Positions 34,172 to 60,961 of a stretch of DNA of 62,019 nucleotides are shown here, piece by piece. The position numbers and the translations under genes were made by a program. The notes under the pieces were generated by a model, which was not told the DNA's origin, did not search any database, and saw only the letters and a list, made by a program, of their open reading frames with translations. Source of the DNA: a virus. Location: the IMG/VR virus record IMGVR_UViG_3300033571_007564, positions 1 through 62,019 of that record. One strand, 5' to 3'. Within the stretch, counting starts at the first letter, position 1; the number at the start of each line of letters is the position of its first letter.

Positions 34172-34187
34172 CCCTATTTATGTCGCC
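34172..34187 (-). promoter_or_regulatory. Late promoter-like motif, copy 1
   Basis: On the minus strand it reads GGCGACATAAATAGGG and lies 12-27 bases before the ATG at 34160. The core ACATAAATA resembles the T4 late -10 sequence TATAAATA. The same 15-base string occurs at 46157-46171 and 60946-60961 ahead of other late genes. It overlaps the last codons of the gene at 34178-34612. Confidence 0.8.
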
Positions 34188-34612
34188 ACGATCCGGTTTT
34201 GTTTCTCGGCTTTCCGGCAGGCGAGCAAAATCATGGACCTCGCCCCGGTTCTGGTGAACGCTAGTCTCGTGAACCCACCTCGATTACTAGCCTCCTCCTC
34301 TAGCCATCCGACCACAGTCTCGATGTTGTCTAGTACCCATTGGCTTCCGAGTTGGTCCATCTTCAAGGCCTTGGAGTTGCAGGTACAGTCCTCGGAGGCC
34401 ACGATCCCGAACCACCCGAGCAGCTTCTTGAGCTCCGTCCCTGGCCCGGCTGGCTCTGGCTGCTGCGATCTCAGGTGCGGGTAGGCGTAGTGGGTCTCAT
34501 CGACCGTTATCAGGTCTCCGTCCCTGGACACGACGCAGGGCTCCACCTCGTCCCAGGTGTAGCCTCGCTGGTCGAGCCTCGACTGAAACTGGGTGACGGG
34601 CCCCGTAATCAC
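34178..34612 (-). CDS. Conserved-type protein with Cys pair and GTELKK segment (144 aa)
   Basis: ATG at 34612 is in ATGA overlap with the Cys-rich gene upstream. The segment PGTELKKLLGWFGI, a CTC cysteine pair and VVGWLEEEASNRGG resemble a short conserved module seen in several phage and bacterial proteins of unknown function. Its end overlaps the late promoter copy 1. It is the last gene of the nozzle/fibre unit. Confidence 0.75.
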   Translation of the reverse strand: MITGPVTQFQSRLDQRGYTWDEVEPCVVSRDGDLITVDETHYAYPHLRSQQPEPAGPGTELKKLLGWFGIVASEDCTCNSKALKMDQLGSQWVLDNIETVVGWLEEEASNRGGFTRLAFTRTGARSMILLACRKAEKQNRIVAT

Positions 34613-35178
34613 GGGAAAACCTGCGCTGGGCAGCCTCCAAAGAGAGCGTCATTTGGGTAGCACTTGCCGTCGCTGCATGCGATCCCTGGGACACCCGACG
34701 CCCGCTTGTATATCAGCGTGCCGTTTCTGTCGCCCGGAGTTCCGACGTAGTCGGCAATCTCCTGGGAGCCAAGACGGCAACTGTCGGCTGGGTTGGTTGT
34801 CAGAAACGGTGGGATTCCATCCAGCGGCATTTCTGGGTAGTAGATTCGGCAGAGCGTGTACCCGGGGTACGGGCTGTAGCTTTTGACGTAGGTCGCGGTC
34901 GGGCAAACTCCATTTCGCCGGTCGATCTCGAAGTAACAGAAAGTCGGGCAGCCCACCTGGCAGTTGGCCTGGCACTCTGCCTGCGTGGCGTACCCATCGA
35001 CGCGGGGTTTGGACTCGCAAATCCCTGTCGTCCTGTTGCAAATCCATGTCTCTGGCGGCGGCGGAGGTGGCGGATCGCAGCACTCGCATGGCGGGGCCGG
35101 GTTCAGGTCAACGGCAGACCTGACCAGCTTCCCTCCCTTCCTGAGCAGCTTGCCCTTTCGCCTGACCAGCTTGTCCAT
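34609..35178 (-). CDS. Cys-rich, Pro-rich virion-type protein (189 aa)
   Basis: ATG at 35178; an in-frame start at 35226 shadows the next gene. After a basic N-terminus it has a run of eight Pro, then many Cys in pairs (CECCDPP, CNRTTGICE, CQANCQVGC), suggesting disulfide-bonded modules. Tyr/Pro-rich stretches follow (SYSPYPGYTLCRIYYPEMP). Disulfide-rich virion proteins are exposed surface proteins in some phages. The family is not recognised. Confidence 0.8.
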   Translation of the reverse strand: MDKLVRRKGKLLRKGGKLVRSAVDLNPAPPCECCDPPPPPPPETWICNRTTGICESKPRVDGYATQAECQANCQVGCPTFCYFEIDRRNGVCPTATYVKSYSPYPGYTLCRIYYPEMPLDGIPPFLTTNPADSCRLGSQEIADYVGTPGDRNGTLIYKRASGVPGIACSDGKCYPNDALFGGCPAQVFP

Positions 35179-35182
35179 GCCG

Positions 35183-35821
35183 TCACTCGCAGTTCGTGGT
35201 GTTGGCCAGGTCCTTCTCGATGGCATCGAGCCTCTTCTTGATTCGCACCAGCTCGTTTTGCTGCTGCCACAAGACCTGGCACACGTCCTTGTTTTTCATG
35301 ATCCCGACAGCCGGATCGTTGCAGCACTTCGGGCAGCCGCCGAACGAACCGCCACCAGTCGCCCACCTGATGCAGTCGTTCACCTTCTTCTGGAACCACG
35401 AGCAGTTCAACCGCTCCATGATTCTCGTCTCGAAGGCGGCATAGGCTCCTTCGATCGCCGAGGAGGTCATGGAGTCGATGAGGTCCTTGATGGAGTCCCA
35501 GTCGATCGTGCCCGGCGTTCCAGGGATGCCTGGCATGCCGTCCCTGCCCGTGGTGCCAGTGCCGCCGTACCCCGGCAGTCCGTCCTTCCCTGCCCTGCCA
35601 GCCGCCCCGTCCCTGGCGTTCGCTTCCTTGGCCTTGTGGGCGTTGTAGAAGGCGGCGTTGTTTGCCGAGGTCTGGTTGAACGACCTGGCGCCCTGGCTGC
35701 CTGGAACTGGGGAGTTGGCCATGGTCAGCAGGCGCTGGGCGATGTCCGCGCTGTGCCCGGCCGGGACACCAGCTTGCGTGAGGAGGCCTGCGATCTGCTG
35801 TGCAGAGACGTTGTTGCTCAT
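35183..35821 (-). CDS. Collagen-like protein with coiled-coil and Cys end (212 aa)
   Basis: ATG at 35821 is in ATGA overlap with the nozzle gene stop. Residues 70-105 contain Gly-X-Y repeats (DGLPGYGGTGTTGRDGMPG), enough for a short trimeric collagen-like stalk. A helical domain follows with GGCPKCCNDP near residue 165, and a coiled coil at the C-terminus (VRIKKRLDAIEKDL). It is probably a trimeric appendage or small fibre at the nozzle. Confidence 0.8.
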   Translation of the reverse strand: MSNNVSAQQIAGLLTQAGVPAGHSADIAQRLLTMANSPVPGSQGARSFNQTSANNAAFYNAHKAKEANARDGAAGRAGKDGLPGYGGTGTTGRDGMPGIPGTPGTIDWDSIKDLIDSMTSSAIEGAYAAFETRIMERLNCSWFQKKVNDCIRWATGGGSFGGCPKCCNDPAVGIMKNKDVCQVLWQQQNELVRIKKRLDAIEKDLANTTNCE

Positions 35822-38800
35822 TCGCCCTCGACTCCCATGACTTCGATGCCGTGTAGGATCACTGGGCCAGCGTCATCCTGCTGCCCGAACAGCCTGACAG
35901 CGACGTGAGCATCCGACCCCCCGAAGTCCCTGATCGTCCTCCCGGCAAACACAGCACGAGCCACGCCATTCGACTCCCCGTCGTCGCGCGCCAGGTCGAT
36001 GTAGGACTGCGGGCTCTCGTTGTCTGCAATGAACCCCACGCCGCGAATCCTCTCAGCCACGTTCCCTCTCGGCTTGGTCGAGTTGTTGTAGAAGAGCTGG
36101 AGGTAAAGGAGGCACTTCGTGACGGCAGTGCGGTGGATCACGGAGACAGTGCGGCTGTTCTGCTGATCTCCGTTCTTCGCAGACTCATCGGTGATGAAGG
36201 CGAGATTGCCGGACTTCCACGCCCACGGGATGGGGGCGCCGTCGTCGGTCAGCCCCTGAGCGAACTGCACGATGCCAGCCTCGCCGTTGGACTTCGCCAC
36301 GCTGGCGGTGACGTGCGTGAGCTGTCCGTCTGCACCCCTGATCGAAGCAGAGCAGAGGAATTGCGATGGGTATCCCTCCATCCACGCCGTCTTCGTGTCC
36401 ACGTCGTAGACGATCTGCCTGGTCGGGTGATCTCCCTCGTCTCCGTCGAAGCAGACGTGGATGCGGATGACGCCGAGATTCCTGTCGGCACGGACAAAGA
36501 ACCACTTCCGCTTGGAGAAGTCGATGGTCGGCAGGCTCGCGTCCGTGTTGGTCATAACCATCGTGCTGAGGGCGTCGAAGAGCGATTCGACCTGCCCCTG
36601 CTCGTTGATCTTGTAGAGCCCGAAGTCATCGAAGACGTATGCGTCACCCAGGTAGATGTCCCAGCACCTCTGGTTCACGCACCCACGGTAGGCCACCAGT
36701 GCAGTCGTGGCGTTCATGGCCGGGTTGTTCACCCAGTTCAGCCTGTTGCAGTGGCGAGACTGCATGACGAGGACCGCACCGGCATAGGGGATTCCGGCCG
36801 TGATGTAGTCCGTGTCCCTGACGTTCGTCTGGAGGATGAGCCTGTTGGTCTCGGGCATGGACTCCGGCTCGTCAGCCTCGGAGTAAGCGATCGTGTTCGG
36901 CTCCTTGCCGGTGGTGTCCCCCATGAGGAGCTTGCGGTCCTGGAACACGATGCCGATCGAGAAGTCCGGGGACGCCACGCCGAATCGGTTGGCGTTCAGG
37001 CTGCCGTCGTCGAGCAGGATCGGCATGGCCTCGAAGCCATCCCGGTTCACGTCGGTCAGGTCGTAGTCCGAGAGCTTGTCCTCGAACGGCTGGGCCGGGT
37101 CGAGGATCGTGGTCACCCTGAAGAGCGTGATAGCCTGATCCCCAGTGCTCCGCCAGAGCTCGGCGCCTGTGGCCCACGTCGGCTTGGGGTCGGTGAGGCG
37201 CCACGTCAGCTTTGCGGCGTGATCCCCGCAGTCCACCTCATTGACCGGGGAGAGGCTGGATCGCACCGGGCCGCCGGACGTGGCCGGGACGTTCGCGTTC
37301 ACCCACCTGTAATAGCACTGGTACTTGCCGCGAAGTGTCGGCCGCATGATGGCGAGCCCCCTGGCTCCACCCACCTCGCCGTCGGTGTTGAGCAGCTTCG
37401 GCGGGAACAAGTAGGTCTTGTTCGGATTCTCCAGGAGCAGCTTGGTGATCCGGCCATAGCAGTCCACCTCGGTCTTGAACGTGTCTCCGTCGTCGGTCGT
37501 AAAGGTCGGTGGAGTCATGTACCCCCTGCCTGCGTTCGCTGGCTTTGGGTCGATCTGACGCTGCTTGTAGGTGTTGGTCTCCGAGATGGTCAGCTTGTCC
37601 GGGCAGCTCGGGTCGGAAATGCAGTATCCGCGGGCCTTGAGCTGGCACCTGGCGGTGGTGCTGCAATTCGGGCCGTTCTCGTACCCGGCGGAGAACCCTG
37701 CGGCTGTGTGCAGCGTGGCAACGATCTCGTCACCGGCCTCGTACCCGGAGCCGAAGTCGTAGACCTGAGCGGTGATGGTGTAGTCGGCGAGGTCAGTGCC
37801 GTCGCCAGCGTTGTAGCACTTGATCTTTCCCCAGAAGGCTTCCGGGAAGAAGAAGATGACCTTCGCGCCGCTGCCCTTGCCTCCGGTGGCGGGGACGATG
37901 ACGCCATTGCCCTCCCGCCGGTACTCGCTGAGGCACATCCAGTAGTTGACGGGCCACTCGAAGATTTCCCAGAAGACCACTCCGGTCTCGGGGTCCCCCG
38001 CCGCAAAGCCCTTCTTCAGCTTCAGCGCGGCAGCCGCTCCAGTCCCAGTGACGGCAAGGCCTGGCTGGTCCCGGAACTGCACGCACGGAGTGGAGGTGTA
38101 CCCCGTGCCTCCGTCGGTGACCTCCACCTCCGAGACCTGAGCGTTGCCGATGCGGGCGATGGCCTTGGCCTGCCTGCCACCGACGACAACGGGGTCGATC
38201 GGCGACTGGAGCAGGTAAGAGCTCGTGTCGCCAAGCAGGTCGATGGCCTGATGAGATGTACCCCCGGCAGATGACGAGACGATCGCACCGGACTGCCCAG
38301 GCGGCGGTCCGATGTAGACGCTCGGCGTTAGGTTGTACCCGTTGCCGACATCGGTCAGGTCGATGCGGGCGACATAGAAACTGGGGCTGGAGTCGATCGT
38401 GATGCCGGGCATGGCGGCTGGAGCGCCCAGGCCCACTGGTCGTAGCGTGCCATCGCTACCGCGTACAAGCCCCGGCTGCCCGTAGCCTTGGTAGATGTAG
38501 ACTTCGCCCCTGCGTCCTTGGCAGAACGAGACCGGAAACTCCGGCCGGAGCGTGGTGAGCTTCTTGGAAACAGTCGTTTCAGTTCCGACAAGGTTCTTGA
38601 TCTCCAGGAGGTAGCCAGCGTCGTCGAACGCCAGGACAGTGTCGGTCTTGCCCGATCCGACCGACAAGCCCCACATCTCCAGAAGCCTGTTCGTCACCTT
38701 CAGGATGGTCTTCATCCCGCCACGGACAGTGAGCTGCCCGGGGATGAGGGACATGACGTTGAACTGCTCGGTGGCTGCGCCGGGCGGGAGCTTGTAGGCA

Positions 38801-38841
38801 CTCGCCGCCTGGTACAGGCCGAGGAAGTTGGTGATTCTCAT
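35818..38841 (-). CDS. Tail nozzle-like large protein (1007 aa)
   Basis: ATG at 38841 is in ATGA overlap with the adaptor-like gene. The N-terminal VMSLIPGQLTVRGGMK and the repeated beta-rich, Asp/Gly-containing segments are typical of nozzle-type tail proteins of podoviruses (gp12 of T7 and gp10 of P22 are examples of that group). The C-terminal third contains RQIVYDVDTKTAWMEG and other short beta motifs, consistent with a beta-propeller. It is adjacent to the adaptor-like gene and to fibres. Homology is suggested by context and style, not proved. Confidence 0.7.
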   Translation of the reverse strand: MRITNFLGLYQAASAYKLPPGAATEQFNVMSLIPGQLTVRGGMKTILKVTNRLLEMWGLSVGSGKTDTVLAFDDAGYLLEIKNLVGTETTVSKKLTTLRPEFPVSFCQGRRGEVYIYQGYGQPGLVRGSDGTLRPVGLGAPAAMPGITIDSSPSFYVARIDLTDVGNGYNLTPSVYIGPPPGQSGAIVSSSAGGTSHQAIDLLGDTSSYLLQSPIDPVVVGGRQAKAIARIGNAQVSEVEVTDGGTGYTSTPCVQFRDQPGLAVTGTGAAAALKLKKGFAAGDPETGVVFWEIFEWPVNYWMCLSEYRREGNGVIVPATGGKGSGAKVIFFFPEAFWGKIKCYNAGDGTDLADYTITAQVYDFGSGYEAGDEIVATLHTAAGFSAGYENGPNCSTTARCQLKARGYCISDPSCPDKLTISETNTYKQRQIDPKPANAGRGYMTPPTFTTDDGDTFKTEVDCYGRITKLLLENPNKTYLFPPKLLNTDGEVGGARGLAIMRPTLRGKYQCYYRWVNANVPATSGGPVRSSLSPVNEVDCGDHAAKLTWRLTDPKPTWATGAELWRSTGDQAITLFRVTTILDPAQPFEDKLSDYDLTDVNRDGFEAMPILLDDGSLNANRFGVASPDFSIGIVFQDRKLLMGDTTGKEPNTIAYSEADEPESMPETNRLILQTNVRDTDYITAGIPYAGAVLVMQSRHCNRLNWVNNPAMNATTALVAYRGCVNQRCWDIYLGDAYVFDDFGLYKINEQGQVESLFDALSTMVMTNTDASLPTIDFSKRKWFFVRADRNLGVIRIHVCFDGDEGDHPTRQIVYDVDTKTAWMEGYPSQFLCSASIRGADGQLTHVTASVAKSNGEAGIVQFAQGLTDDGAPIPWAWKSGNLAFITDESAKNGDQQNSRTVSVIHRTAVTKCLLYLQLFYNNSTKPRGNVAERIRGVGFIADNESPQSYIDLARDDGESNGVARAVFAGRTIRDFGGSDAHVAVRLFGQQDDAGPVILHGIEVMGVEGE

Positions 38842-39884
38842 GGGTAGCTACTGGGTGATCCACCATCGAGGATGGATGGGCCTGGCGAGGATGGAGTGCC
38901 GCCGTCGAGGATGCCGCCTGGCGTCGAGCCACCACCGGACGACCCTGATCCTGAGTTGTCGGCCCCGGGGCGGAGGTACCAGTAGGAATAGTACCCGAAG
39001 CGAGATTCGCGGCGCCCGGAGATGGGAGCCTTCGAGTCGCGCTCGAACGCCAACCTCAAGTCCCTGCCGTAGATACCCATGGCCCCTTCGATGTTCTTGC
39101 CAGTGAGGCGGGCAAGCCACGTCTCGGCACCAGACAGCAGGGCGGTGTACATCTGCGGGGAGATGTCCAGGTAGTCGGTGATGATGTACTTCGTGCCCTG
39201 GTGCTGGATGTTCCCGGCGGGGCTCCAGGCAGAGAGCTCGGTCGGGCTGGCGATGGCGTAGATCAGCGCCTCGTCGGCATACCCGTTCATCCCGGCGAGG
39301 CTCTCGGGGTGCATCGTCGGGTCGCCTGAGAAACGAATCAGGCTTCCGATCATCAGCTTCGAGAACTGGGTGTTGGTCCCATGCGTGACCAAGCCGTCTG
39401 CCGTCACTGTCCCGCACCGTGCCTGCTTCTCCCAGCCAGTGAATCGCAGGTCCCTCGGGCGGCGCCGGTAGGTGAGCGTCATGGAGGTGTCGTAGGCCCA
39501 CCCGTTGAACACCCGCAGGTCCCAGCGATCGGGCATCGACTTCGACGGGCTGATCGTCCACACGATGTGAACCAGCGTCCTGAAGGCGGTGTTGATGAGC
39601 CGCTCGAACTCCATCGGCGAGACGTACTCGGCGACGATGCCGGTCATCGGGAGGGAGACTGCGTCAACGGAGCTGACTCCCCACGGCAGCGTGTAGGTGA
39701 TGATCCTGTTCGAGGACGACAGGGGAATCCGGTCGGTGCTGTGGTACCAGTCCCACGACCTGACCTCGACCAAGTCCCGGTAGGCATTGAACAGGGACTG
39801 GCGAAGGACGCGGTGCTCTTGGTCTTGAGCTCCGCCCCCAGTCGAGGACATCAGGTACTCGATCGCGTCGATGGCTGCGTACAT
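38838..39884 (-). CDS. Head-tail adaptor-like (tail tubular A-type) protein (348 aa)
   Basis: ATG at 39884. The N-terminus (QDQEHRVLRQSLFNAYRDLVEVRSWDWYH) is the helix-rich pattern of adaptor proteins that pack under the portal. A beta-rich middle follows (LTYRRRPRDLRFTGWE), and the C-terminus is a Gly/Ser/Pro-rich flexible tail. It lies upstream of the nozzle gene with which it overlaps by four bases. This order, adaptor then nozzle, is standard in short-tailed phages. Confidence 0.75.
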   Translation of the reverse strand: MYAAIDAIEYLMSSTGGGAQDQEHRVLRQSLFNAYRDLVEVRSWDWYHSTDRIPLSSSNRIITYTLPWGVSSVDAVSLPMTGIVAEYVSPMEFERLINTAFRTLVHIVWTISPSKSMPDRWDLRVFNGWAYDTSMTLTYRRRPRDLRFTGWEKQARCGTVTADGLVTHGTNTQFSKLMIGSLIRFSGDPTMHPESLAGMNGYADEALIYAIASPTELSAWSPAGNIQHQGTKYIITDYLDISPQMYTALLSGAETWLARLTGKNIEGAMGIYGRDLRLAFERDSKAPISGRRESRFGYYSYWYLRPGADNSGSGSSGGGSTPGGILDGGTPSSPGPSILDGGSPSSYP

Positions 39885-39887
39885 TCA

Positions 39888-45673: not shown

Positions 45674-45799
45674 TTACTTCTTGCCGATGATGTAGGTGCC
45701 GTCCTGGGCGATGAGACGGTTGGTGTTCTGGCCGGTGATGTTGTATGGGCTCTTGGGGGTAGTCGGAATCCCACCAGGCCGCATGGTTCCCTGGCTCAT
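45674..45799 (-). CDS. Small virion-type peptide (41 aa)
   Basis: ATG at 45799 overlaps the TGA of the upstream gene (ATGA at 45796-45799), and the frame ends in TAA at 45674-45676. The product is polar (MRPGGIPTTPKSPYNITG, then GQNTNRLIAQDGTYIIGKK), with no membrane segment. Coupling on the 5' side and its fill of an otherwise empty gap support translation. It may be a virion accessory peptide. Confidence 0.65.
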   Translation of the reverse strand: MSQGTMRPGGIPTTPKSPYNITGQNTNRLIAQDGTYIIGKK

Positions 45800-46128
45800 G
45801 CCTTCACCACAGCTTGGGCGGTGCAGGTTCCGGCGTTGATGACCGCGCAGACCTGGACCGCACCGTAGGCGGCGCCTGGGATTTCGTAGGCCCGGCCCGC
45901 CAGGACCGTGGTCGTCAGGGCGTTCCCCGAGGCGTCACACAGGGGGACCGGCAGGTCGCCGTCGTTGTAGGCGACGTGCCAGGAGATGGTCGTCCCGGTG
46001 ACCAGGGTGTTGATGAACAAAAGTCCACCTGCCGATGCCCGGTAGGGGATGCGGTAGGCGGTGGCCGGGGTCGTTCCGACGCTCCCGGGGGCAATCTGGG
46101 AAAAGGACCTGAGAATCTGGCACGACAT
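45796..46128 (-). CDS. Small beta-rich virion-type protein, first gene after late motif 2 (110 aa)
   Basis: ATG at 46128, 28 bases downstream of the late motif at 46157-46171. The protein is Ala/Thr/Gly/Val-rich with beta strands throughout (GGLLFINTLVTGTTISWHVAY, YGAVQVCAVINAG), similar in style to decoration or head-fibre proteins. It heads the fibre unit. Confidence 0.75.
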   Translation of the reverse strand: MSCQILRSFSQIAPGSVGTTPATAYRIPYRASAGGLLFINTLVTGTTISWHVAYNDGDLPVPLCDASGNALTTTVLAGRAYEIPGAAYGAVQVCAVINAGTCTAQAVVKA

Positions 46129-46156: not shown

Positions 46157-46171
46157 CCTATTTATGTCGCC
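46157..46171 (-). promoter_or_regulatory. Late promoter-like motif, copy 2
   Basis: The minus strand reads GGCGACATAAATAGG, identical over 15 bases to copies 1 and 3. It lies in the 62-base gap between 46128 and 46191 and 28 bases ahead of the ATG at 46128. This is exactly where a promoter for the fibre unit is expected. Confidence 0.82.
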
Positions 46172-46190
46172 TCGACGCCAGATTGACGCA

Positions 46191-46730
46191 CTACCCCTTC
46201 TTCTTCCAGGAAGGAGCGTGCTTCTCGACCACCAGTGCCCTGGCCTGGGCCTTCTTCAAGTCGGGATTCTTGGCCATCGCAGCCCTGGTGAGGCGAGCGA
46301 TCGCCCGCTTGCTGAGGGGCGGGGCCTCGGGCTTCGGCCGCTCCGAACCCTCATGATTCACGATGCCCTGGACGGTCAGGTTCCGTGCCTTGGCCACCTT
46401 CAGCACGTCGCTCGTGTCGCCGACCCATGCCATCGGGTCCATGTGCCCCCGCTTGTCAGCCAGGCCGGAGACGTACTGCTTCCCAGAGATGCTGATTCCG
46501 GCCGCCTTGGCCTCGCGGACGATCTTGTTGGCCTGGTGGACCGGCATGTCGTTGAGCCAGCTCCCGTCCATCCTCCCCTCCTGGAACGCACGATCGGTGC
46601 CCTTCGTCCCAGGGGGCTGCTGGAGCGCGCACATGATGGCGAACCGCTCGTCCTGCCCGGACTCGACCATCCGCTGGAAGTGGTCCTGGACGTGCTGAGG
46701 CGCCTTGGCAATCTCGTAGGGGAGTTTCAC
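46191..46730 (-). CDS. Conserved-type protein after the portal (179 aa)
   Basis: ATG at 46730 is in ATGA overlap with the portal gene stop. The run RMVESGQDERFAIMCALQQPPGTKGTDRAFQEGRM, then HQANKIVREAKAAGISISGKQYVSGLAD, resembles a protein seen next to portal genes in other environmental phages. Its function is not known to me. The C-terminus is basic (KKAQARALVVEKHAPSWKKKG), which could contact DNA. Confidence 0.75.
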   Translation of the reverse strand: MKLPYEIAKAPQHVQDHFQRMVESGQDERFAIMCALQQPPGTKGTDRAFQEGRMDGSWLNDMPVHQANKIVREAKAAGISISGKQYVSGLADKRGHMDPMAWVGDTSDVLKVAKARNLTVQGIVNHEGSERPKPEAPPLSKRAIARLTRAAMAKNPDLKKAQARALVVEKHAPSWKKKG

Positions 46731-48865
46731 GGGTTGAGCTCCGGGGGAATCTGGGGCGGAGGAGGCGCCCCGCCGCCGCCGTCACTGGACGGAGGTGGAC
46801 CGCTCGGGCCTGAAGGCGGCAAGCCCGGGTCCCCAGGAGGCGGCGGCGGGGGAGGTGGAGGAGGTTCGGGGATGAGGAAGGGGGTCGGGTCGATGTCGAG
46901 GGACTTCGCCCACTCGGTGAGCAGGGCGTTCCACACCGTGACCGCGCCGGTGGCGGCGAGCTGCTGTGCCATCGGGCCGACCGTCTGCATGGCCATTTGC
47001 ATCTGCTCCACCTTCCCGGCCTTGTTCGGCTTGCGGGCGGAGCCTGCCTCAATGCGGTACTCGAACTCCCGGGCCATGGCGTTGATGCCGATCGGGATGA
47101 TCTGCTTGTCCCACGCTTCGGCGCCGAGGGGGCCGACGATCGGGGCGACATCCTTGCCTTCGAGCAGCCAGCGGGCGGCAAGAGCCTCACGCCTTGCCAG
47201 CATCCCCATGGCATCTTCGAGGACGTTGGCCATGTCGTCGGGCCTGACGCTGATCTGCTCGGACTTCACCTGGGCTTCGGCAGCCGACCGGAACTGGTTC
47301 CTGGTCATGCCGTACACGAGCTCGGTGAGTCCGACCCGCTTGTCAAACATCTCCATGAGGGCAGTGAGGATGTCCCAGATGTCGCGGTTCACCGACGGCA
47401 TCGTGAGCACGGAGATGATGTCGTCGATCTTTCTGCCCATGGTCTCGGACAGCTCGATGATCGTGAAGCCGCCTTGCTCGTGCTTGAGGAGCTGGTCCTT
47501 CGTGTCCTGCTCGGCGGCCTTGTTGACGGCGATGAAGGTCTTGCACGAGACCATGATCCGCGAGATGAGGAACGAGATGATCCAGTTGATGCACTTCAGC
47601 TCGGGGATGCCTGGCTTGATGTGGCTGATCGGCCACGAGTACCCGGTCTTCCGGTGGAACTGGAGTGGCACGAACGGCCAGCCGTTGTTCTCGGTGTAGA
47701 AGGGGATCGGCCACCGCGTGCGGGCAAAGAGCGTCTCGGGCATCCCGGTCTCGGGATCGACCTGCTCGATCGCCACTGCCTTCGGTGCGTTGAGAGGAAA
47801 GTCCACCCCTTCCGCGATCACGATGTAGCAGTTGTCCCCAAGGGAGTCGAAGCGGTCTTTGAGCTCCTTCGGCGCCCCCTTGAGGCTGTGGCCGAATCCG
47901 GTCTTGGACCAAATCTTCCAGTAGATCACGAGGTCGTTGGTCCCGCCGTTCTTTTGCCTGTTTCGGTAGCCAGGGTCCTTGTCCCCTGCCTTTGCCTCAT
48001 AGCTCTCGATGTGGCCCTTGAGGTCTTCGTCGTCGAGCTTGTACTTCTTGCGGAGGTACCCGACGGGGTGAACGCATCGCTTCGCCACCCACAGGATGTC
48101 CTCCTGTTCGTCGGCGTCCGGGTCCCATTGCACGTTCCGGCTGGAGTCGAAGAAGCTGCCGATGACGTGATAGGGCTCGCCGTTGTCGCCTTCGAGCTCG
48201 ACTGCCTCCGTCCACCACAGCCCGAGCCCAGTGACGATCGCTTCATCGACGCACTTCCTGGACTGCTCCTTCAGATTGAGCTCGACGGGCGTGTAGTTCA
48301 GGTAGGCCTCCACGAGACTGGAGACGGTCGCTCGTTTCTCCTCCTCGGCGGCGATGCGCTGCGACACCTCCAGGTACTTCTGCATCGGGTCTTCGACCGG
48401 CATCCCCGTGTTCGGGTCGATCAAGGGCATCCCGGTCATGGGATCAATCGGAGGCGGAGCGTTCGGGTCGATGCCAAGCGTCATTGGCGAGACGACCGGG
48501 AACTTCCGGGGCGTCACGGTTCGCACCGGGTTGCGGTGGTAGATGACGCTGGCGAAGAGCTTTACCGCCTCGAAGACCTTGTTGAGCACCACCTTGAAAG
48601 CTGGCGTAACGTCCTTGGAGAGCGCGGACTGTTCGAGCTTTTTGGAGTCAGACCAGAACCAGTCGTTCGTTCCGTCGAAGAAGTTGCGGGCCTCATCCGC
48701 ATCGGACGCAAACGGCTGCTTGTGCTTCTCGGACTGCCTGATCTTGTCGATCCAGGAGGTGGCGATGGCGCGGAGCGCATCTTCCATCTCCTTCGGAGAT
48801 GAGCCTTCTTCCGTGCCTTCGGCTGGGTTGTCGCCCTGGAGCTGGAAGTCGTCTTCGAGGCTCAT
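46727..48865 (-). CDS. Portal protein (712 aa)
   Basis: ATG at 48865. The N-terminus (WIDKIRQSEKHKQPFASDADEARNFFDG) and the long helical sections with NPVRTVTPRKFP suit a podovirus-type portal. The C-terminal tail is Pro/Gly-rich (PPPPPPPPPGDPG), which may be the barrel or a disordered end. Its position downstream of the terminase, with only one gene between, and its size support the assignment. It forms the dodecameric vertex for packaging and the adaptor. Confidence 0.85.
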   Translation of the reverse strand: MSLEDDFQLQGDNPAEGTEEGSSPKEMEDALRAIATSWIDKIRQSEKHKQPFASDADEARNFFDGTNDWFWSDSKKLEQSALSKDVTPAFKVVLNKVFEAVKLFASVIYHRNPVRTVTPRKFPVVSPMTLGIDPNAPPPIDPMTGMPLIDPNTGMPVEDPMQKYLEVSQRIAAEEEKRATVSSLVEAYLNYTPVELNLKEQSRKCVDEAIVTGLGLWWTEAVELEGDNGEPYHVIGSFFDSSRNVQWDPDADEQEDILWVAKRCVHPVGYLRKKYKLDDEDLKGHIESYEAKAGDKDPGYRNRQKNGGTNDLVIYWKIWSKTGFGHSLKGAPKELKDRFDSLGDNCYIVIAEGVDFPLNAPKAVAIEQVDPETGMPETLFARTRWPIPFYTENNGWPFVPLQFHRKTGYSWPISHIKPGIPELKCINWIISFLISRIMVSCKTFIAVNKAAEQDTKDQLLKHEQGGFTIIELSETMGRKIDDIISVLTMPSVNRDIWDILTALMEMFDKRVGLTELVYGMTRNQFRSAAEAQVKSEQISVRPDDMANVLEDAMGMLARREALAARWLLEGKDVAPIVGPLGAEAWDKQIIPIGINAMAREFEYRIEAGSARKPNKAGKVEQMQMAMQTVGPMAQQLAATGAVTVWNALLTEWAKSLDIDPTPFLIPEPPPPPPPPPPGDPGLPPSGPSGPPPSSDGGGGAPPPPQIPPELNP

Positions 48866-49392: not shown

Positions 49393-51093
49393 TCACGCCA
49401 CCCAGGTTTTGGTATAGGAATTGGGGGTTAGGTAAACGGCTTCGTTTGACTCCCTAGCTTTGGCGGCGTCTCTCTCCCTTTTCCACGCATACCCCCACCA
49501 CTCGGCCTTCTGGACGACAGGGGCGTGGTAGCGGGGCTCGTAGGCGAAGAGGTACCGGAGGCAGTCCACGAGGTGGAACTCGCCTCGCTTGTTGGGCTCG
49601 TCCTTCACGATGGTCTGGGCGCCGACGTGCTCGACCTTCTTCTTGTACCGCTTCATCTCGTTTTCCAGGTTGGGCATGGCGCCACGCAGCACGCGGAGCT
49701 TCGAGGTCCCATCTGGACGAATGTGCAGTGCGGTGCGGACAGCATGGAACCCGGCCTGGATGTCGTCCACGCCAGGGATGAAGCTGGCGCCAGTGGCCTG
49801 CGATCGGATGTTGAGGATGGCGAGCTGCTCGGTGTACTGGTCCTGCGGGCTGCGGCCGGAGCCGATGTCCGTGAGTCGCCCGCCGTGCGAGTCGATCAGG
49901 AAGGCGTAGAACTGCGTGCCCTGGGTCTTCTTTGCCATCTCCTGGGCGAAGATGACCGCGTTGCAGTTGCGGATGTAGAGCTCGTCGTAGAGCAGGACCA
50001 TCGAGCCGTCGGGTGGGATGGCTGCGAAGGAGACTGCGGTGACCGAGTGCCCGGGGTCGATCGAGGCGTAGCGGCACCAGTTGGCTGGCACCTGCCCATC
50101 CGGAAGCTCGGATCGATCGTAGCCATGCACCGACATGTTGAACGACGGGTAGACCTTGATCGAGTCGATGTTGAACTCGCCCTCGGATCGCTGGCGGAGC
50201 ACAGCCTCTCCGGCCGACGACCACCGCTCCAGCATCTTCCGCTTCTCGTCGTCCGAGATGTGCGGGTTGTCCATGAAGCGGAGGATGTACCGCTTGATGT
50301 CTGGGTTGCCGGTTTCAAGCGCCCGCTCGGCACGCTCGTTGAGGCTCATCAGTGCGTCGTTCTTCGAGTGGGGCATCGCGGACCACGCGAAGTTGCCCGC
50401 GAGGTCAGGGAGGCGGGCCTGCATTTCCAGCACCCAGTCCTCATTCTCGATGTCTTCGTCTATGTGGATGCGGTTGGCCTTGAAGCCTTGCTGGGGCTTT
50501 GCTTCGCTTGAGAAGAAGTGAATCGTCCAGCCGTTGACGAGCTCGCAGACGTTCAAGTAGTTGGCCGACTTCAAGAGCCATGACATGCTCTTGATGAGGC
50601 GCGGCGGGATGAGCGGAGGCGCGGGCTTTGTCTCCTTCTCCCGGCCTGCATCCGCCACCGGATCGAACGCTCGCCAGTGGCCCGTCGTCAGGTCGCGGAT
50701 CATCTTGAAGGCACCTGCCTTGAAGAGCATCGGCACGACCGTCAGGCCGATGTGCTTCCACCCGGCGCCGATGATGACGAGGACTCCGTCTTCCTTGGGA
50801 TACTTTCCGGGGACGGGGTGGGTGCCTGTTACAGCCCATGCGTCCTCGATGAAAGTGCAGAGGGACTTCCCGGATCGATTGCCACCGACGACGAGGATTT
50901 CACTCGCTCTGTCCTGGTGGTACTCCCACTGGATCGCCGACGGACGATAGAGCCTCAAGGCCTCGGCACGCCTCAGCGAAAGCTCGCTCTGCAAGCTCTT
51001 GAGTTCGTCGATCTGAAAGCCCGAGAGGCTGCTGACCGAAGGGAGCGGCTGTGGACCCGGCTGGGGCTGGGGCTGGGAGTTGTGAGACGGCAT
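49393..51093 (-). CDS. terL: Terminase large subunit (566 aa)
   Basis: ATG at 51093; the N-terminal 50 residues after a Gln/Pro tail include the adenine-contact-like LYRPSAIQWEYHQDRASE. Walker A is VVGGNRSGKS, and Walker B is RIHIDEDIENEDW. The nuclease part has SIDPGHSVTA and FLIDSHGGRLTD, with Asp residues that would bind metal. The C-terminus is LRYLFAYEPRYH. It drives ATP-dependent DNA packaging into the prohead. It overlaps the upstream gene by 194 bases. Confidence 0.92.
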   Translation of the reverse strand: MPSHNSQPQPQPGPQPLPSVSSLSGFQIDELKSLQSELSLRRAEALRLYRPSAIQWEYHQDRASEILVVGGNRSGKSLCTFIEDAWAVTGTHPVPGKYPKEDGVLVIIGAGWKHIGLTVVPMLFKAGAFKMIRDLTTGHWRAFDPVADAGREKETKPAPPLIPPRLIKSMSWLLKSANYLNVCELVNGWTIHFFSSEAKPQQGFKANRIHIDEDIENEDWVLEMQARLPDLAGNFAWSAMPHSKNDALMSLNERAERALETGNPDIKRYILRFMDNPHISDDEKRKMLERWSSAGEAVLRQRSEGEFNIDSIKVYPSFNMSVHGYDRSELPDGQVPANWCRYASIDPGHSVTAVSFAAIPPDGSMVLLYDELYIRNCNAVIFAQEMAKKTQGTQFYAFLIDSHGGRLTDIGSGRSPQDQYTEQLAILNIRSQATGASFIPGVDDIQAGFHAVRTALHIRPDGTSKLRVLRGAMPNLENEMKRYKKKVEHVGAQTIVKDEPNKRGEFHLVDCLRYLFAYEPRYHAPVVQKAEWWGYAWKRERDAAKARESNEAVYLTPNSYTKTWVA

Positions 51094-51595
51094 CGTGGAC
51101 ACTCTTTGCGTTGGTGAGGTGCAGGATGGCTTCGATGCGCTTGTCAATCTCCGACTGCAACTCCTCCTCGGAGTAGAGGTCGATCGGCTTGCGGGCGCCT
51201 CCCTGCTCGGTGTTCTTGATGGTGATCCTGGAGATCATCTCCAGCATGCTGGACCGGCACCGCGACCCGGGCTTGGCATCCCAGAACTGCTTCATGACGA
51301 GCGCGGCAAAGCCGTTCACTCCCCCGAAGTTGTTCATGATCGCTTCGGTGAGCTCGGCGGTGTGCGGGATGTTGGCCCCGCCCGAGATCATCCGGCTGAC
51401 GAAGGAATCGACCGCGTTGGCCTCGACCTTGTCGAGGGCGTCCTGCCGCTTCTGCTTCTTCTGGCAGCGGCGGCACACGCGGCGGAACTTGTGCGTGCAG
51501 CCTGCCGCGCGGGCGAAGTGCTTCTTGGTCAGCGGGTACGGGAGCAGGCACTTCTCGCACTGCTGGATCGGGATGTCCTCTTCGGGTTCGCTCAT
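50900..51595 (-). CDS. Putative small terminase subunit with zinc-type N-terminus (231 aa)
   Basis: ATG at 51595. The N-terminus has CEKCLLPY near residue 13 and CRRCQKKQ near residue 41, so a zinc site. The segment NNFGGVNGFAALVMKQFWDAKPGS, then RITIKNTEQGGA, resembles proteins next to terL in many phages, where they are taken as small terminases. The C-terminal 65 residues, read opposite the start of terL in the overlap, look like low-quality sequence. The assignment rests on position and this resemblance. Confidence 0.55.
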   Translation of the reverse strand: MSEPEEDIPIQQCEKCLLPYPLTKKHFARAAGCTHKFRRVCRRCQKKQKRQDALDKVEANAVDSFVSRMISGGANIPHTAELTEAIMNNFGGVNGFAALVMKQFWDAKPGSRCRSSMLEMISRITIKNTEQGGARKPIDLYSEEELQSEIDKRIEAILHLTNAKSVHDAVSQLPAPAPAGSTAAPFGQQPLGLSDRRTQELAERAFAEACRGLEALSSVGDPVGVPPGQSE

Positions 51596-55349: not shown

Positions 55350-55422
55350 TGGGGGCGGCCGGACTCGAACCGGCGGCCTCTGGGTTATGGGCCCAGCGAG
55401 CTACCAACTGCTCCACGCCCCG
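55350..55422 (-). tRNA. Initiator-type tRNA-fMet (anticodon CAT)
   Basis: The minus strand folds into a complete 73-base cloverleaf without encoded CCA: acceptor CGGGGCG/CGCCCCC, D arm GAGC/GCTC, anticodon arm CTGGG-CCCATAA-CCCAG, T arm GCCGG-TTCGAGT-CCGGC. Three initiator marks are present: an unpaired 1:72 position (C1 and C72), A11:U24, and three G:C pairs next to the anticodon loop. Position 33 is C instead of the usual U, as in some eukaryotic initiators. It lies in a gap of 104 bases between two virion-region genes. Confidence 0.9.
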
Positions 55423-55962: not shown

Positions 55963-56023
55963 CGCTGTGGTCTACCTCGAAGGGATGGAGATGGGGTGGA
56001 GATGACTCTCTTGGAACTCCGGC

Positions 56024-57148
56024 TCAGGCAAGAGCCTTGAGGAAGAAGAAGTTCCTGGGGGAGCGGAAGCGGAGGTTGGCGAGCGTGCTCACGACGTACT
56101 TGTAGGCCTGGGTGTTCACGTCGTACACCGGCCCCTCGACGATGAAGAGCGTGTCCTCCATGCACCGGAGCTCGACGTTGTCGATCGAGAGGCCGTACCC
56201 GCACCCGTTCGGCACGCCGTACTCGGTGCTGACATCCACCCCGTCCTGCTGAAACACGTCCTTGAAGCCGTAGGAACGCAGGCCCTCGTTGCTGTTGGCG
56301 AGGATGCGCTCCTTGGCGTCGAGGCGCGTCTTGAAGTCGATGAACATCCGGCGATCGACGAGCACCACGTCGATCTGGGCTTCCTTGGTGTCGTTCCGCT
56401 GCGCCTGGTTGATGCCCTCACGGACGGCCAGGGTGCAGTTGTCGAACCATGTGTAGGAGCTGCCGCCGTTCTTGAAGGCGGTGGAGGTGTAGTTGATGAC
56501 GATGGGGCTGTAGAAATCGTACTCCGGGTCAGCCTGGCCATTCGGCCACGAGACGCCGGGCTGCTGCGAGCCAGCGATGGCCCCGAGGCCGGTGTTGATC
56601 GTGGCGTAGGTGTCGTTCGGGAAGCCGAACATGTCGGCGGCGTTGGCCGCCCGCTGCGCCCCGGTCGAGATGTTGACCGTTCCGTTGACGGAGCCGAATG
56701 ACTCCATTCCGTGGAACCGCGTCTCGTTGCCGACAGCCTCGCCGTCGGTGTAAATCTCCTTCGAGAGGAACTGCTTGAGGCTCGTGGTGAGCCGGTTTTG
56801 CATCTTCGAGCCGACCTGCACCAGCGCCGCAGCGCCGGTGTTCTCCTTGAGCTCCTTGCGGTAGATCATGTCCGTGGTCTGGTAGCCACGGTAGGGGAGC
56901 TGGGCGTCCACCCAGAGGTTCTGTCGAGCGAAGATACGGGGAGTTTCGCCCGTATTTCCGGTCACAGGCTGGTTGCGAAACTGCACCTGCCAGTCGATTC
57001 CGCGCCCGCCCTGATTCATCAGGACGTTGCCGGAACCTTCCAGCAAAGCGAAAATCTTGAACGACCTGAGCATCGCCAGCTCCTCCTGACGGAGGTAGTT
57101 GACGGTGGTCGTTCCGATCGTCCGTGCCCAGTCTGTGCTCGAAGGCAT
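56024..57148 (-). CDS. Major capsid protein, HK97-type (374 aa)
   Basis: ATG at 57148. The chain begins ARTIGTTTVNYLRQEELAMLRSFKIFALLEG, has an extended central region with DVVLVDRRMFIDFKTRLDAKER, and ends in beta-rich DTLFIVEGPVYDVNTQAYKYVVS. The length, beta-rich build and position after a scaffold-like gene and before a decoration-like gene support it. I cannot prove the HK97 fold by eye. Confidence 0.8.
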   Translation of the reverse strand: MPSSTDWARTIGTTTVNYLRQEELAMLRSFKIFALLEGSGNVLMNQGGRGIDWQVQFRNQPVTGNTGETPRIFARQNLWVDAQLPYRGYQTTDMIYRKELKENTGAAALVQVGSKMQNRLTTSLKQFLSKEIYTDGEAVGNETRFHGMESFGSVNGTVNISTGAQRAANAADMFGFPNDTYATINTGLGAIAGSQQPGVSWPNGQADPEYDFYSPIVINYTSTAFKNGGSSYTWFDNCTLAVREGINQAQRNDTKEAQIDVVLVDRRMFIDFKTRLDAKERILANSNEGLRSYGFKDVFQQDGVDVSTEYGVPNGCGYGLSIDNVELRCMEDTLFIVEGPVYDVNTQAYKYVVSTLANLRFRSPRNFFFLKALA

Positions 57149-57165
57149 GCTTCAAACCTTTCGTT

Positions 57166-58314
57166 TCAAATGAGTCCGCGTTGTTTCGCCGTGTCGAGCA
57201 TGATCTGCTCGAAGGTTCTCGGCTTGGCTGCGCGTGGGTCGGTGTTGGCTGTTCCCGCCGAACGGTTCGGCGATCGGGATGCTTCCCGCTTGAGGAAATC
57301 CATGTTGGCTTGGGCTCGGGCTGCCCTGGCTGCGTCCTGGCTCGATGTGTCGGGTTGGGGCGGGGCCGGGGGGGCGAACTGCTGTTGAGCTTGCGGCGGC
57401 TGCTGGAAGAACTCGGGCTCCTGATCGACTTGCTGCCTCGCCGCGTAGTCGCGGAGCAGGAGCTCGTGTTCGACCTTGTCCCTTGCGTACTGCCATCGGT
57501 CCTTGGGGTTGGCGATTCCCATGCCGCGCGCTTGCTCGACATATTTATGTACGGCGATGGCCTCAGTTGTCACACTTCCGTCTTCGTTGAAGAGCCAATC
57601 CTTGTTTTCGTCGCGGATTTGATCCACGAACGACTCGTTGTCGCGCTGGGAAAGCGTCTGCTGGATGGTCTCTTGGGCGATCTGCTTGGCTCGGCTCTCG
57701 ACCATCGGGCCAAGGGCAGCCTCGGGGTCCTCCAGGAACTTCTGGGCGAAGTCCTGCTTGAACGCCACCTGCTCTTCGAGTGCCATCCGCGCGTCGGGCG
57801 GGGCGTCCGGAGAGATGATCTGGCGGCCGGTCTCGGGGTCACGGACGAGGTACCGCTTGTGGGCATCGCGGACCTGCGGGGGATTCCACCACGACTTCTT
57901 GCCGTCCTCGACGGGCTTCGTCCCGGGCTGGGCGGCCGGTTGCTGCGGCTGCTGGCGGGACTTCTGCCACTCCTCGAACTGCGGCCGTTCGGCCAGGTAC
58001 CTCTGCATGTTCGGGTAGAGCTGCTGGAACTGCGTGAGCTGCTGCGTGGCGGCACGCTCGCGGGTCATCGTCTGGTAGAGCGCGTGGGCGATCTGCTCCT
58101 CGCTTGCCCCCCGGAACTGCGGCAATTGCCGGAAGTTGTTCATCACCTCCCAGCTCGGCTTGGGCGGGGCGGCGGGCGGCGCCTGGACGGCCGCCTGCTG
58201 GGGGGCAGAAGACTGCGGCGTTGCACCTGATTCAGGTGAGCCAGAGTCCTGGGATGCAGAGACATCAACATCCTGATCTACAACGCCAACGGAATCGTCA
58301 GAGGGCATGGACAT
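57166..58314 (-). CDS. Scaffolding-like protein (382 aa)
   Basis: ATG at 58314. The protein is Gln/Ala/Pro/Glu-rich with an acidic N-terminus, a helical middle (YLAERPQFEEWQKSRQQ, FAQKFLEDPEAALGPMVES) and a basic C-terminal helix (FEQIMLDTAKQRG). This is the usual build of podovirus scaffolds. It precedes the capsid gene by 17 bases. The late-type motif ACATAAATA lies within it at 57542-57550. Confidence 0.8.
   Translation of the reverse strand: MSMPSDDSVGVVDQDVDVSASQDSGSPESGATPQSSAPQQAAVQAPPAAPPKPSWEVMNNFRQLPQFRGASEEQIAHALYQTMTRERAATQQLTQFQQLYPNMQRYLAERPQFEEWQKSRQQPQQPAAQPGTKPVEDGKKSWWNPPQVRDAHKRYLVRDPETGRQIISPDAPPDARMALEEQVAFKQDFAQKFLEDPEAALGPMVESRAKQIAQETIQQTLSQRDNESFVDQIRDENKDWLFNEDGSVTTEAIAVHKYVEQARGMGIANPKDRWQYARDKVEHELLLRDYAARQQVDQEPEFFQQPPQAQQQFAPPAPPQPDTSSQDAARAARAQANMDFLKREASRSPNRSAGTANTDPRAAKPRTFEQIMLDTAKQRGLI
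57542..57550 (-). promoter_or_regulatory. Late promoter-like core inside the scaffold gene
   Basis: The minus strand reads ACATAAATA, identical to the core of the three intergenic late motifs but without the GGCG prefix. It is about 395 bases upstream of the major capsid ATG, in coding sequence. A promoter here could give extra capsid transcripts, as T4 has a promoter for its capsid gene inside an upstream gene. Confidence 0.45.
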
Positions 58315-58376
58315 GAGCGGTCCTCCTTGTGTGGCCGGAGATCACAACCTATGGAGGCCGATCACGCAAGGGTAAT

Positions 58377-59849
58377 TCACATGGCCCCGAAGCCAGACCA
58401 CGACCTGAGCGCCGGATGGAGGTCGCTCGTTGGGTCCTTCTTGGTCGGCGAGGTGCGGGCCTTGTAGTCCCTCCTCTGACGAAGCCTCTCGTTTGTCTCC
58501 CTCATGTTCGCGTCATAGCCTGCGGCCTGTTCTGCGAACTGGTCGTCTGGCAGGTGTCTGCCTTCGAGGTCCGGCCGATTCTCGATCCCGGGCTTCATCA
58601 TCTGTCCTGGAGAGGGGATGGCCGGGGACAGTGCGGCGCTCGCCCCGAAGGTGAGCGGCAGCGAGGTGAAGGCTTCCTCCATCAGCTCTCCGCCGAAGCC
58701 CCCGAACGGGGCGGTGAGCATGGTGAGCGGATCGAATGGGGCGTCCGAGAGGGCCGACGCGGTGTTCGAGCCCACCCAGCTCGGGACCTTGCCGGTCTTC
58801 GCGCGATGATAGTCGTCGAATCCCATACCCTGCTGCGAGTTCGAGGCGTCCATGAGGCCCCTGGCCTTCGCGTTGTGTCGCTCCTCGGCCGTCTCGGCGG
58901 GCTCGGTGAGCACCGGAGAGATGGCTCGGGCCCACTGGTTGTCGAGCTGGCCGCCGGAGGCTTCGAGCTGGTGGACCATCTCCGACGGATCGAGCAGCGC
59001 TGCCCCAAGGTTGCGGGCGAAGTCGTACCCCGTGGCGGCCATGTGCCCCAGGACATTGCTGTTCCGGGAGTTGGCCACCCACTCCGGGTCCTTCGCGGTT
59101 GGGTCCTTCGCCGTCATGGAGTGGACGAAGTGGCCGACCGGCGAGGCAGCGGCGCCTAGCCACCCGGCAGCGAACTCCGGGTTGTAGAGGGCGTCGAAGG
59201 TGGCCTGCGGCGTCGAGTGGTGCTTGAAGTTCGCCGTCGCCCAGACCCCGTTGGCACCGGGGCTGTAGGCGTGCGTGGCGTCCTTGCCCCGGTTGTAGAA
59301 GTGCAGGGCGTCCTCGATCGGGCGGCGGGCGGCGCCCATCCCAGGGTTTGGGGCGAACCACTGGGCCACCGACTTGAGCTCGGCGTCCTTCTCCGCCGCC
59401 GAGTCGAGGCTCCGGTCGCGGTTGGCAATCGCTTCGAGGTATTCCCGGTCACGCATCCAGGCGTGGTTCTGCTGATCTCCCTGGGAGAGCTCGAAAGTCC
59501 CCGGATCGCCCCGCTTCGCCCGCTCCTCGGGGGTCCAGCCAGGCCCGATCTCCCCCTTCCGCATCTGCTCACGCCACTGCGGCATCTTCTTCTTCGGGGT
59601 GTTGAACATCCAGTCGGCGTCGTGCGGCTGCTCGGCGCGCGGATCACCGACCCGGGCCAGCTTGATCCAGTCCTCGTGACGCAAGAACGGGCTGTTAGCT
59701 GGGAGCGGACCTTGGGACTTACCATGGTAGATATGGTCAGCCACCTGGCTAATGTGCTCAGGCTGCATCCCCATGCCAGACCTTTTGGCAAGGCGACCAA
59801 CTACGTCCCGGAGCTCAGGAAGGCCCTTCGGCTCAGACGGCTGCGGCAT
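58377..59849 (-). CDS. Unrecognised virion-region protein (490 aa)
   Basis: ATG at 59849, overlapping the end of the zincin gene by 17 bases. The chain is Ala/Asp/Pro/Trp-rich with helices. Notable parts are EHISQVADHIYHGKSQ near residue 32, a Trp-rich segment near residue 100 and a Gly/Leu-rich, possibly hydrophobic stretch GGFGGELMEEAFTSLPLTFG near residue 390. No motif is recognised. It is the second gene of the late unit and may be a virion protein or capsid-assembly partner of the zincin-motif protein. Confidence 0.75.
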   Translation of the reverse strand: MPQPSEPKGLPELRDVVGRLAKRSGMGMQPEHISQVADHIYHGKSQGPLPANSPFLRHEDWIKLARVGDPRAEQPHDADWMFNTPKKKMPQWREQMRKGEIGPGWTPEERAKRGDPGTFELSQGDQQNHAWMRDREYLEAIANRDRSLDSAAEKDAELKSVAQWFAPNPGMGAARRPIEDALHFYNRGKDATHAYSPGANGVWATANFKHHSTPQATFDALYNPEFAAGWLGAAASPVGHFVHSMTAKDPTAKDPEWVANSRNSNVLGHMAATGYDFARNLGAALLDPSEMVHQLEASGGQLDNQWARAISPVLTEPAETAEERHNAKARGLMDASNSQQGMGFDDYHRAKTGKVPSWVGSNTASALSDAPFDPLTMLTAPFGGFGGELMEEAFTSLPLTFGASAALSPAIPSPGQMMKPGIENRPDLEGRHLPDDQFAEQAAGYDANMRETNERLRQRRDYKARTSPTKKDPTSDLHPALRSWSGFGAM

Positions 59850-60930
59850 CGGGAGATTCCTGGTTCGAGGCGATGTGGGGGCCGAGTTCGAGGAGGACTT
59901 CCCGCTCCTTCGTGGTCAGGCCCTTGAGGAGCTGCTGCCAGTAGAACTGGAGCTGGTTCCACCCGTGGGCCTGCTTCCCCTTCCTGGGGCCGTACTGCAT
60001 GGTCGGGTCGTCCTCGAATGGCGTGAACACCGGGGCGGGCCGGAGCCTCGTGTCGAAGTCCGGGTTCCGCTGCACGGGACCGACCGGGCGCCGCAGCATG
60101 TCGCTGAACATGTCTCCCCAGTCCTCGGGTGACGAAGCGACCTGGCCGGTGAGGCCGAAGTTCAAGGCTCGGGTCATGGACATGTCGGCGGCGATCTCGT
60201 TCATCTTGTTCTTGTGGCCGAGCTGCAACGCCATCGACGCGGCCTGGCCTGGGAGCGGCGTTTCGCCGGACCTCCGCCATGCCGCCTCGATGCCATCTTG
60301 GCCGCGAGTCCTCCCGAAGAGCCCCTTCGAGGCACTGGAGTTTGCCCGCTCGTTCAGGATTCCGCCGATCTCGTCCTGGTTGAGGTGGTGCCCCCACTCG
60401 TGCTCGCCGACCGCCGATGTCGGGTACCCCGGCTCGAAGAAGTCCATCTTCAGGGGGCTCAGTTCGATGAGATTTGGCAGGTACCCTCCCATGTGGGCCG
60501 TGCCCCCGACCACCGTGTAGGCGGGCTCCCGGAGGGCGTTGTCCCTGAAGTCCTGGAAGAAGTCGCCAGACGGGACATCGGGGTCAGGATCGAACGAGGC
60601 ACTGCCACCTTCGGCATCGAGGATGGACTCCCGCAGCTTCTTCCACCTGGCTTCCCCGAAGCGGCTCTTCTGGAACCCGTCGCCGGTCTGCCGGGCGATC
60701 TTTGCCGGGCCGGGCAGGCCATACGAACCCTCGTCACCCCTATAAGACTGCCAGCCATCAACGGGATAGAAACCAGACTCATCTGGCTCCCCGTTCTTCT
60801 TGGCATACGAGAAGAGGCTGTCGAGCTCCTTGGCGGCAATGTCCCTGGAGGGAGTGACCCTCGCTGCGGGCTGCGTCGGGACTTGGATCGGTCGCTGGAG
60901 CTTCCGGGCGACCTGATTCGGGAAAGCCAT
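59833..60930 (-). CDS. Zincin-motif protein at the head of the late unit (365 aa)
   Basis: ATG at 60930, 16 bases downstream of late motif 3, with GAAGGAG upstream. Residues 174-183 carry VGEHEWGHHL, a HExxH zinc-binding motif (H177, E178, H181), and E245 in NEIAADMS is a candidate third ligand, as in gluzincins. The surrounding chain is otherwise unlike known phage prohead proteases, which are serine enzymes. It may process virion proteins or act in the host after ejection. The family is unknown. Confidence 0.8.
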   Translation of the reverse strand: MAFPNQVARKLQRPIQVPTQPAARVTPSRDIAAKELDSLFSYAKKNGEPDESGFYPVDGWQSYRGDEGSYGLPGPAKIARQTGDGFQKSRFGEARWKKLRESILDAEGGSASFDPDPDVPSGDFFQDFRDNALREPAYTVVGGTAHMGGYLPNLIELSPLKMDFFEPGYPTSAVGEHEWGHHLNQDEIGGILNERANSSASKGLFGRTRGQDGIEAAWRRSGETPLPGQAASMALQLGHKNKMNEIAADMSMTRALNFGLTGQVASSPEDWGDMFSDMLRRPVGPVQRNPDFDTRLRPAPVFTPFEDDPTMQYGPRKGKQAHGWNQLQFYWQQLLKGLTTKEREVLLELGPHIASNQESPDAAAV

Positions 60931-60945
60931 GCGGTGTCTCCTTCG

Positions 60946-60961
60946 CCCTATTTATGTCGCC
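60946..60961 (-). promoter_or_regulatory. Late promoter-like motif, copy 3
   Basis: The minus strand reads GGCGACATAAATAGGG, 16-31 bases before the ATG at 60930, with GAAGGAG between. It matches copies 1 and 2 over at least 15 bases. It would start the main leftward late transcript from the divergent region. Confidence 0.85.

Follow-up and report, generated by a model that had tools for sequence, protein, structure and literature searches.

A conserved repeat in an uncultured phage lineage probably marks late promoters recognized by a sigma factor that the phage encodes

The IMG/VR virus record IMGVR_UViG_3300033571_007564, which comprises 62,019 nt of an uncultured phage and was analyzed here at its full length (the window), carries a 15-base repeat, GGCGACATAAATAGG, ahead of three late genes. 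A fourth copy of its nine-base core, ACATAAATA, lies inside another gene. Based on sequence comparisons, we predict that these repeats serve as late promoters in an uncultured phage lineage and that the phage's own sigma factor reads them; we give this reading a probability of about 0.78. The element, its positions, its conservation (including that of the intragenic copy), a second element upstream and a sigma family protein were all observed directly. From these observations we infer the transcriptional role, the reading by the phage sigma, the timing and the start points. The four copies are as follows.

Site A, 34173..34187, minus strand: GGCGACATAAATAGG, core ACATAAAT at 34183-34176; ahead of late internal-protein genes.
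Site B, 46157..46171, minus strand: GGCGACATAAATAGG, core at 46167-46160; ahead of gene 45796-46128 and the tail genes, after the portal gene.
Site C, 60947..60961, minus strand: GGCGACATAAATAGG, core at 60957-60950; heads the entire late unit, with the first head gene downstream.
Site D, 57542..57550, minus strand: core ACATAAATA; within gene 57166-58314, about 400 bases ahead of the major capsid start at 57148.

A preliminary description of this DNA had reported the 15-base string at A, B and C, and all three copies proved to be exact and on the leftward strand. No further match exists in the window at three or fewer mismatches, and the three copies compare with a shuffle mean of 0.43 at the same tolerance. 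Each copy directly precedes a ribosome-binding site. The distances to the start codon, given earlier as 12-31 bases, are correct at their lower end and measure 12 (A), 28 (B) and 16 (C) bases. The description also placed all three downstream genes after gaps. This is true of B and C, where the gaps are one of 62 bases and one of approximately 0.7-1 kb, but not of A, where the upstream gene (34178-34612) stops on the motif's own TAA (34180-34178, minus strand) and only 17 bases separate it from the next start.

Searches with the portal, terminase, capsid and sigma sequences as queries identified about 20 related uncultured IMG/VR contigs, referred to below by handles such as G001 or L006. Among 50,697 annotated phage records there were no close relatives, only distant terminase similarity. 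A matrix of 17 positions was then built from 23 sites of the other lineages, with the window's clade held out. The four highest scores in the window were those of C (24.3 bits), B (23.5), A (21.1) and D (17.3); the next was 13.1, and the best score across 20 simulated first-order Markov genomes was 16.5 bits. On these results a chance repeat was rejected as the origin of the motif. The preliminary description had proposed a weight matrix search of the genome and its relatives, and that search places exactly A, B, C and D at the top. It had likewise seen no comparable repeat ahead of the rightward genes; the matrix scan agrees, finding nothing convincing there or ahead of the replication and sigma block. 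Some other IMG/VR contigs contain the exact 15-mer, but they have no more than one small gene in common with the window and were treated as chance or unrelated occurrences.

Site D was not listed in the preliminary description. Its codons CAT AAA are identical across nine lineages, and both are minority codons, with frequencies in the window of 0.17 for His CAT and 0.05 for Lys AAA. Across 842 columns of invariant amino acids in five genes, the Lys codon of site D ranks 1, being the least probable of all the fully conserved codons, and the His codon next to it ranks 3. The second codon is AAG (CAT AAG) in G004 and G038. We suggest that site D belongs to the same promoter set as A-C and probably serves the capsid gene as an internal promoter. 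If so, late promoters can hide in coding sequence and be found through synonymous conservation.

Comparison with the approximately 20 related phages shows that the element, with the common core ACATAAA(T/A/C), is conserved in position. Sites A, B and C occur at the same places in the two nearest relatives, G001 and G002, where the counterpart of site C has one mismatch. The core of site A is kept in place in G001, G002, G009, G046 and G047, and its counterpart is ACATAAAC in G030 and CATGAACC in G004. Site B is kept in place in G001, G002, L006, G006, G007, G009, G042 and G047, its counterpart being ACATAAAA in G038, G045 and G046, and CCATGAACCA stands at both A and B in G004. A core site also heads the late unit in G042, G045, G047 and L103. 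G006, G007, G009, G046, G047 and G042 retain ACATAAAT as the core at A and/or B amid different flanks, and the flanks differ by lineage (GGCG-ACATAAAT-AGG, CGT-ACATAAAT-GA and GCGG-ACATAAA(A/T)-GGG). Since the places are the same and the core persists while the flanks vary, the motif consists of a shared core with lineage-specific flanks, and the place of the element is more strictly conserved than its sequence. The overlap with a stop codon seen at site A of the window recurs as well: the TAA of the putative promoter (TGA in G004) also terminates the gene upstream at site A in G004, G030 and G046, and at site B in G038 and G047.

The more distant G033, whose sigma is clearly changed, has no ACATAAA at A, B or D, and a de novo 9-mer search in G004, G030 and G033 gave no clear family motif. 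Two late-strand gaps of G033 (L076), at about 9322-9386 and 13479-13550 (minus strand), both hold TACACCCCC...TAGCT, which might be the dialect used by promoters of this phage. In another comparison, the gene after site B in G004 (clade L007, L008) is 92-100% identical, mostly 98-100%, to that of G042; the identity begins about 40 bases past the core, and the promoters ahead of this near-identical gene differ (CCATGAACCAG vs ACATAAATGGG). The gene appears to have been exchanged recently and now sits downstream of two different promoter dialects. This would fit promoters that need to match the resident sigma, although it is a single case and could be coincidence. More broadly, one could tentatively picture a single family with late promoters at fixed places, one of them intragenic, in which promoter sequence and sigma drift jointly into mutually incompatible dialects and genes are exchanged just downstream, each genome keeping its own dialect, as in G004 and G042. 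We regard this picture as possible, with the odds somewhat against it.

A second element lies upstream of the core. When sites were aligned on the core, with site D left out, TG was present at -23/-22 in 17 of 30. Counting each clade and position once, 13 of 21 independent sites carry it, and none of 2000 shuffles reached 13 at any offset; the sites still share some ancestry, so this statistic is strong without amounting to a formal probability. Because the upstream TG is conserved besides the core, the putative promoter is bipartite. A -35-like hexamer, GNGWCA at 17 bases, was our first idea for the upstream element and was dropped, as TG alone holds across lineages. In the window the TG is found at three sites.

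Upstream TG of site B, 46189..46190, minus strand: -35-like element, TGCGTCAAT, at offset -23/-22.
Upstream TG of site C, 60979..60980, minus strand: TGTGACACC, a block conserved with G001 amid otherwise diverged sequence.
Upstream TG of site D, 57573..57574, minus strand: TGTGACAAC, at offset -24.

The protein proposed to read these sites is encoded at the end of the replication block.

Phage sigma factor, 14954..15469, minus strand: 171 aa, with region 2 at about 23-82 and a predicted C-terminal region 4-like helix-turn-helix at about 107-169.

The small sigma-like protein noted earlier at this locus was verified by the Pfam family Sigma70_r2 (PF04542), which it matches at 28.9 bits against a cut-off of 24; 14 of 15 relatives match as well. 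All near-complete close relatives (G001, G038, G045, G046 and G047; 85-46% identity) encode an orthologue. PF04542 is also matched in the more distant G033 and, below the cut-off, in G008, where the gene adjoins a serine recombinase as it does in the window. In the window the recombinase gene (14147-15082, plus strand) and the sigma gene (minus strand) converge with their 3' ends overlapping by 129 bases; the overlap is kept in G001, at about 123 bases. HTH_38 was detected in 12 of 15 members of the sigma family and Sigma70_r4 in two. The structure model (mean pLDDT 82, pTM 0.48) consists of a region 2 bundle and a C-terminal helix-turn-helix joined by a flexible linker. Its best Foldseek matches are bacterial sigmas (WhiG, FliA/SigD-type and ECF), with a low whole-chain TM, probably because the two sigma domains move freely. 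Among phage families, phrog_1740 (the phiEco32/7-11 family) gave weak matches via region 4, the best in the set being 1.5e-6, and phrog_234 (the gp55 family) gave weak matches via region 2.

Taken together, these analyses suggest the following scheme. In the early phase of infection, the rightward genes and the leftward replication block, whose last gene is that of the phage sigma, would be transcribed by the RNA polymerase of the host. Once made, the phage sigma would associate with the host core RNA polymerase and switch it to the four late promoters, where the sigma would read a bipartite sequence consisting of the upstream TG, about 20 bases and ACATAAA[T/A/C]. Transcription would begin approximately 6-8 bases downstream of the core, so that leaders would be short and start at the ribosome-binding site or immediately ahead of it. 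Judged by the spacing known from T4, phiEco32 and 7-11 (PMC1524935, PMC8948821), start points are predicted near 34169 (site A, about 9 bases ahead of the ATG at 34160), 46153 (B), 60943 (C) and 57536 (D). Promoters C, D, B and A would drive the head, capsid, tail and internal-protein genes leftward.

Several points weigh against this reading. In the window, site A carries AG in place of the TG at -23. No characterized protein is closely related to the sigma, and therefore its specificity is not readable from its sequence. The sigma that would partner the G004 dialect (CCATGAACC) was not found among the contigs, because those of G004 end before the sigma region. Finally, the early promoter presumed for the sigma block is tentative, being based on two genomes: the window sequence listed below and its G001 counterpart, TTGACT-N16-TAACCT. 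Generic sigma-70 promoter scans gave no surplus over shuffles.

Candidate host-type promoter, 23469..23496, minus strand: TTGACT-N16-TAGCCT, ahead of the replication and sigma block; tentative.

The alternative that survives best is that the sites are promoters read by a host sigma, housekeeping or alternative, and that the phage sigma serves something else. A bipartite layout is typical of sigma-70 family promoters, and the GNGWCA of the window's clade is vaguely like TTGACA. However, the motif is missing from the rightward genes and the replication block, and the core follows the phage lineage, being different in G004 and lacking in G033. Moreover, every near-complete close relative carries the phage sigma. 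We therefore consider this explanation unlikely.

The preliminary description had called the sites T4-like late promoters read by a small phage sigma factor. The late promoters, their restriction to one strand, the co-occurring sigma-like protein and the resemblance of the -10 core to that of T4 are all supported; the assignment to the T4 type, as stated, is not. T4 late promoters consist of a single element, TATAAATA, spanning -13 to -6, which gp55 recognizes together with gp33 and the gp45 clamp (PMC1524935). For true T4-type promoters one would thus expect an orthologue of gp55 that lacks region 4, assisted by a sliding clamp and a co-activator like gp33. The core found here, CATAAAT(A), matches 7 of 8 positions of the T4 element, with C at the differing place in all ACATAAA-type sites; CATAAATA and TATAAATA are one base apart, and T4-type elements are known to differ in their first base (PMC1524935). 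In addition, the weak phrog_234 matches extend to 14 of 15 sigma relatives, hhalign supports a faint relationship to gp55 over one stretch only, 41 columns of region 2 (P 0.005), and the helix that reads the -10 element resembles that of T4. In contrast to the single element of T4, the sites here have a conserved upstream TG, and whereas gp55 lacks region 4, the window sigma has predicted region 4-like helices at 107-169. A gp45-type clamp (C-terminal domain, PF09116) had no match in the window or four relatives, a moderately informative result as the control genomes include no phage positive. Based on these differences in upstream element, region 4 and clamp, the sites do not belong to the T4 type, which we judge a very improbable explanation; the likeness to T4 is limited to the -10 core.

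It is more doubtful still that the sites have another role in RNA or DNA, as a translational operator, a processing site or a recombination or packaging signal. The position of A, B and C directly before ribosome-binding sites would suit such a role, but the orientation is strictly that of the late strand, the TG is conserved 23 bases upstream with a free spacer between, and about 400 bases lie between site D and the next late-unit start codon. An RNA leader element alone was rejected on this last ground. Least probable of all are promoters of a phage-encoded single-subunit RNA polymerase, an idea that draws on the AATAGGG present in most copies, with its T7-like ...ATAGGG end, and that was rejected since the GGG is not conserved in other lineages and no polymerase was found (PF00940 is unmatched in the window and five relatives, and the control set holds none either).

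The predicted scheme can be placed on the rest of the genome. The record has a terminal direct repeat of 87 bases (1-87 and 61933-62019) and is therefore most likely a complete circular assembly; repeats in relatives are 127 or 55 bases, typical assembler overlaps, and these genomes are probably complete circular assemblies likewise. The leftward unit carries the portal, major capsid, terminase and tail genes, and the replication block near 15-23 kb encodes an exonuclease, an Erf-type annealing protein, a helicase, a RusA-like resolvase and a nucleotide hydrolase. Genes near the sites include the following.

First gene after site A, 33615..34160, minus strand: ORF with homologues in G001, G002, G004, G046 and G047.
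First gene after site B, 45796..46128, minus strand: ORF with homologues in G001, G002, G004, G042 and G045.
Portal protein, 46727..48865, minus strand: phrog_156, 5.8e-4; just upstream of site B.
Terminase large subunit, 49393..51147, minus strand: PF03237 weak and below cut-off, resembles annotated terminases of other phages; predicted to be served by sites C/D.
Major capsid protein, 56024..57148, minus strand: phrog_9953 major head protein, 2.8e-5; downstream of site D.
First gene after site C, 59833..60930, minus strand: ORF with homologues in G001 and G002.

A 57% identical terminase is encoded on L158, a 3.2-kb contig in a Planctomycetia MAG (metagenome-assembled genome), which is a weak hint of the host. 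A tRNA-Met (CAT) gene lies within the structural block (55350-55422, minus strand). Between early rightward genes, three strong hairpins with T runs (338-381, 2241-2280 and 3716-3755, plus strand) look like intrinsic terminators. The same strand encodes a MoxR-like AAA ATPase (5350-6522) followed by a DUF2201 protein with metallopeptidase-like and VWA-like domains (7224-8924), a pair that is unusual for an early phage region.

This study offers a cross-validated prediction, made from sequence alone, of a phage sigma together with the full set of its promoters, for a lineage without close annotated relatives. With one sigma and four promoters, the system is small and open to direct testing, and the family supplies natural variants of both for studying their joint change.

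Features of a general phage-sigma late system are present in the window, namely an encoded sigma-70 family protein (PF04542 above cut-off) and a repeated motif on one strand before late gene groups. Bacterial group 3/4 sigmas (WhiG, FliA, ECF) share the two-domain fold and give the best sequence and fold matches, but there is no close sequence identity and the window sigma is encoded by a phage. In phiEco32, the phage sigma gp36 similarly reads one motif (tAATGTAtA) before middle and late genes, and the early and late arms are on opposite or separate units. However, its promoters have a single element, its sigma is without region 4 homology (PMC8948821), and hhalign detects no homology to the window sigma. 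The late promoters of Salmonella phage 7-11, GTAAtg-(16)-aCTA, are read by its own sigma, gp47 (PMC8948821). Here the likeness extends to a phage sigma with regions 2 and 4, to bipartite promoters before late genes and to promoter places that are conserved though the sequences differ from those of relatives. The consensus and the genome arrangement differ, and homology between the sigmas is undetected by hhalign, with weak matches to the same PHROG via region 4 only. By analogy, then, 7-11 and phiEco32 appear to be the closest known systems, the layout being nearest to that of 7-11; the kind of system is known, while the sigma sequence and the consensus are new.

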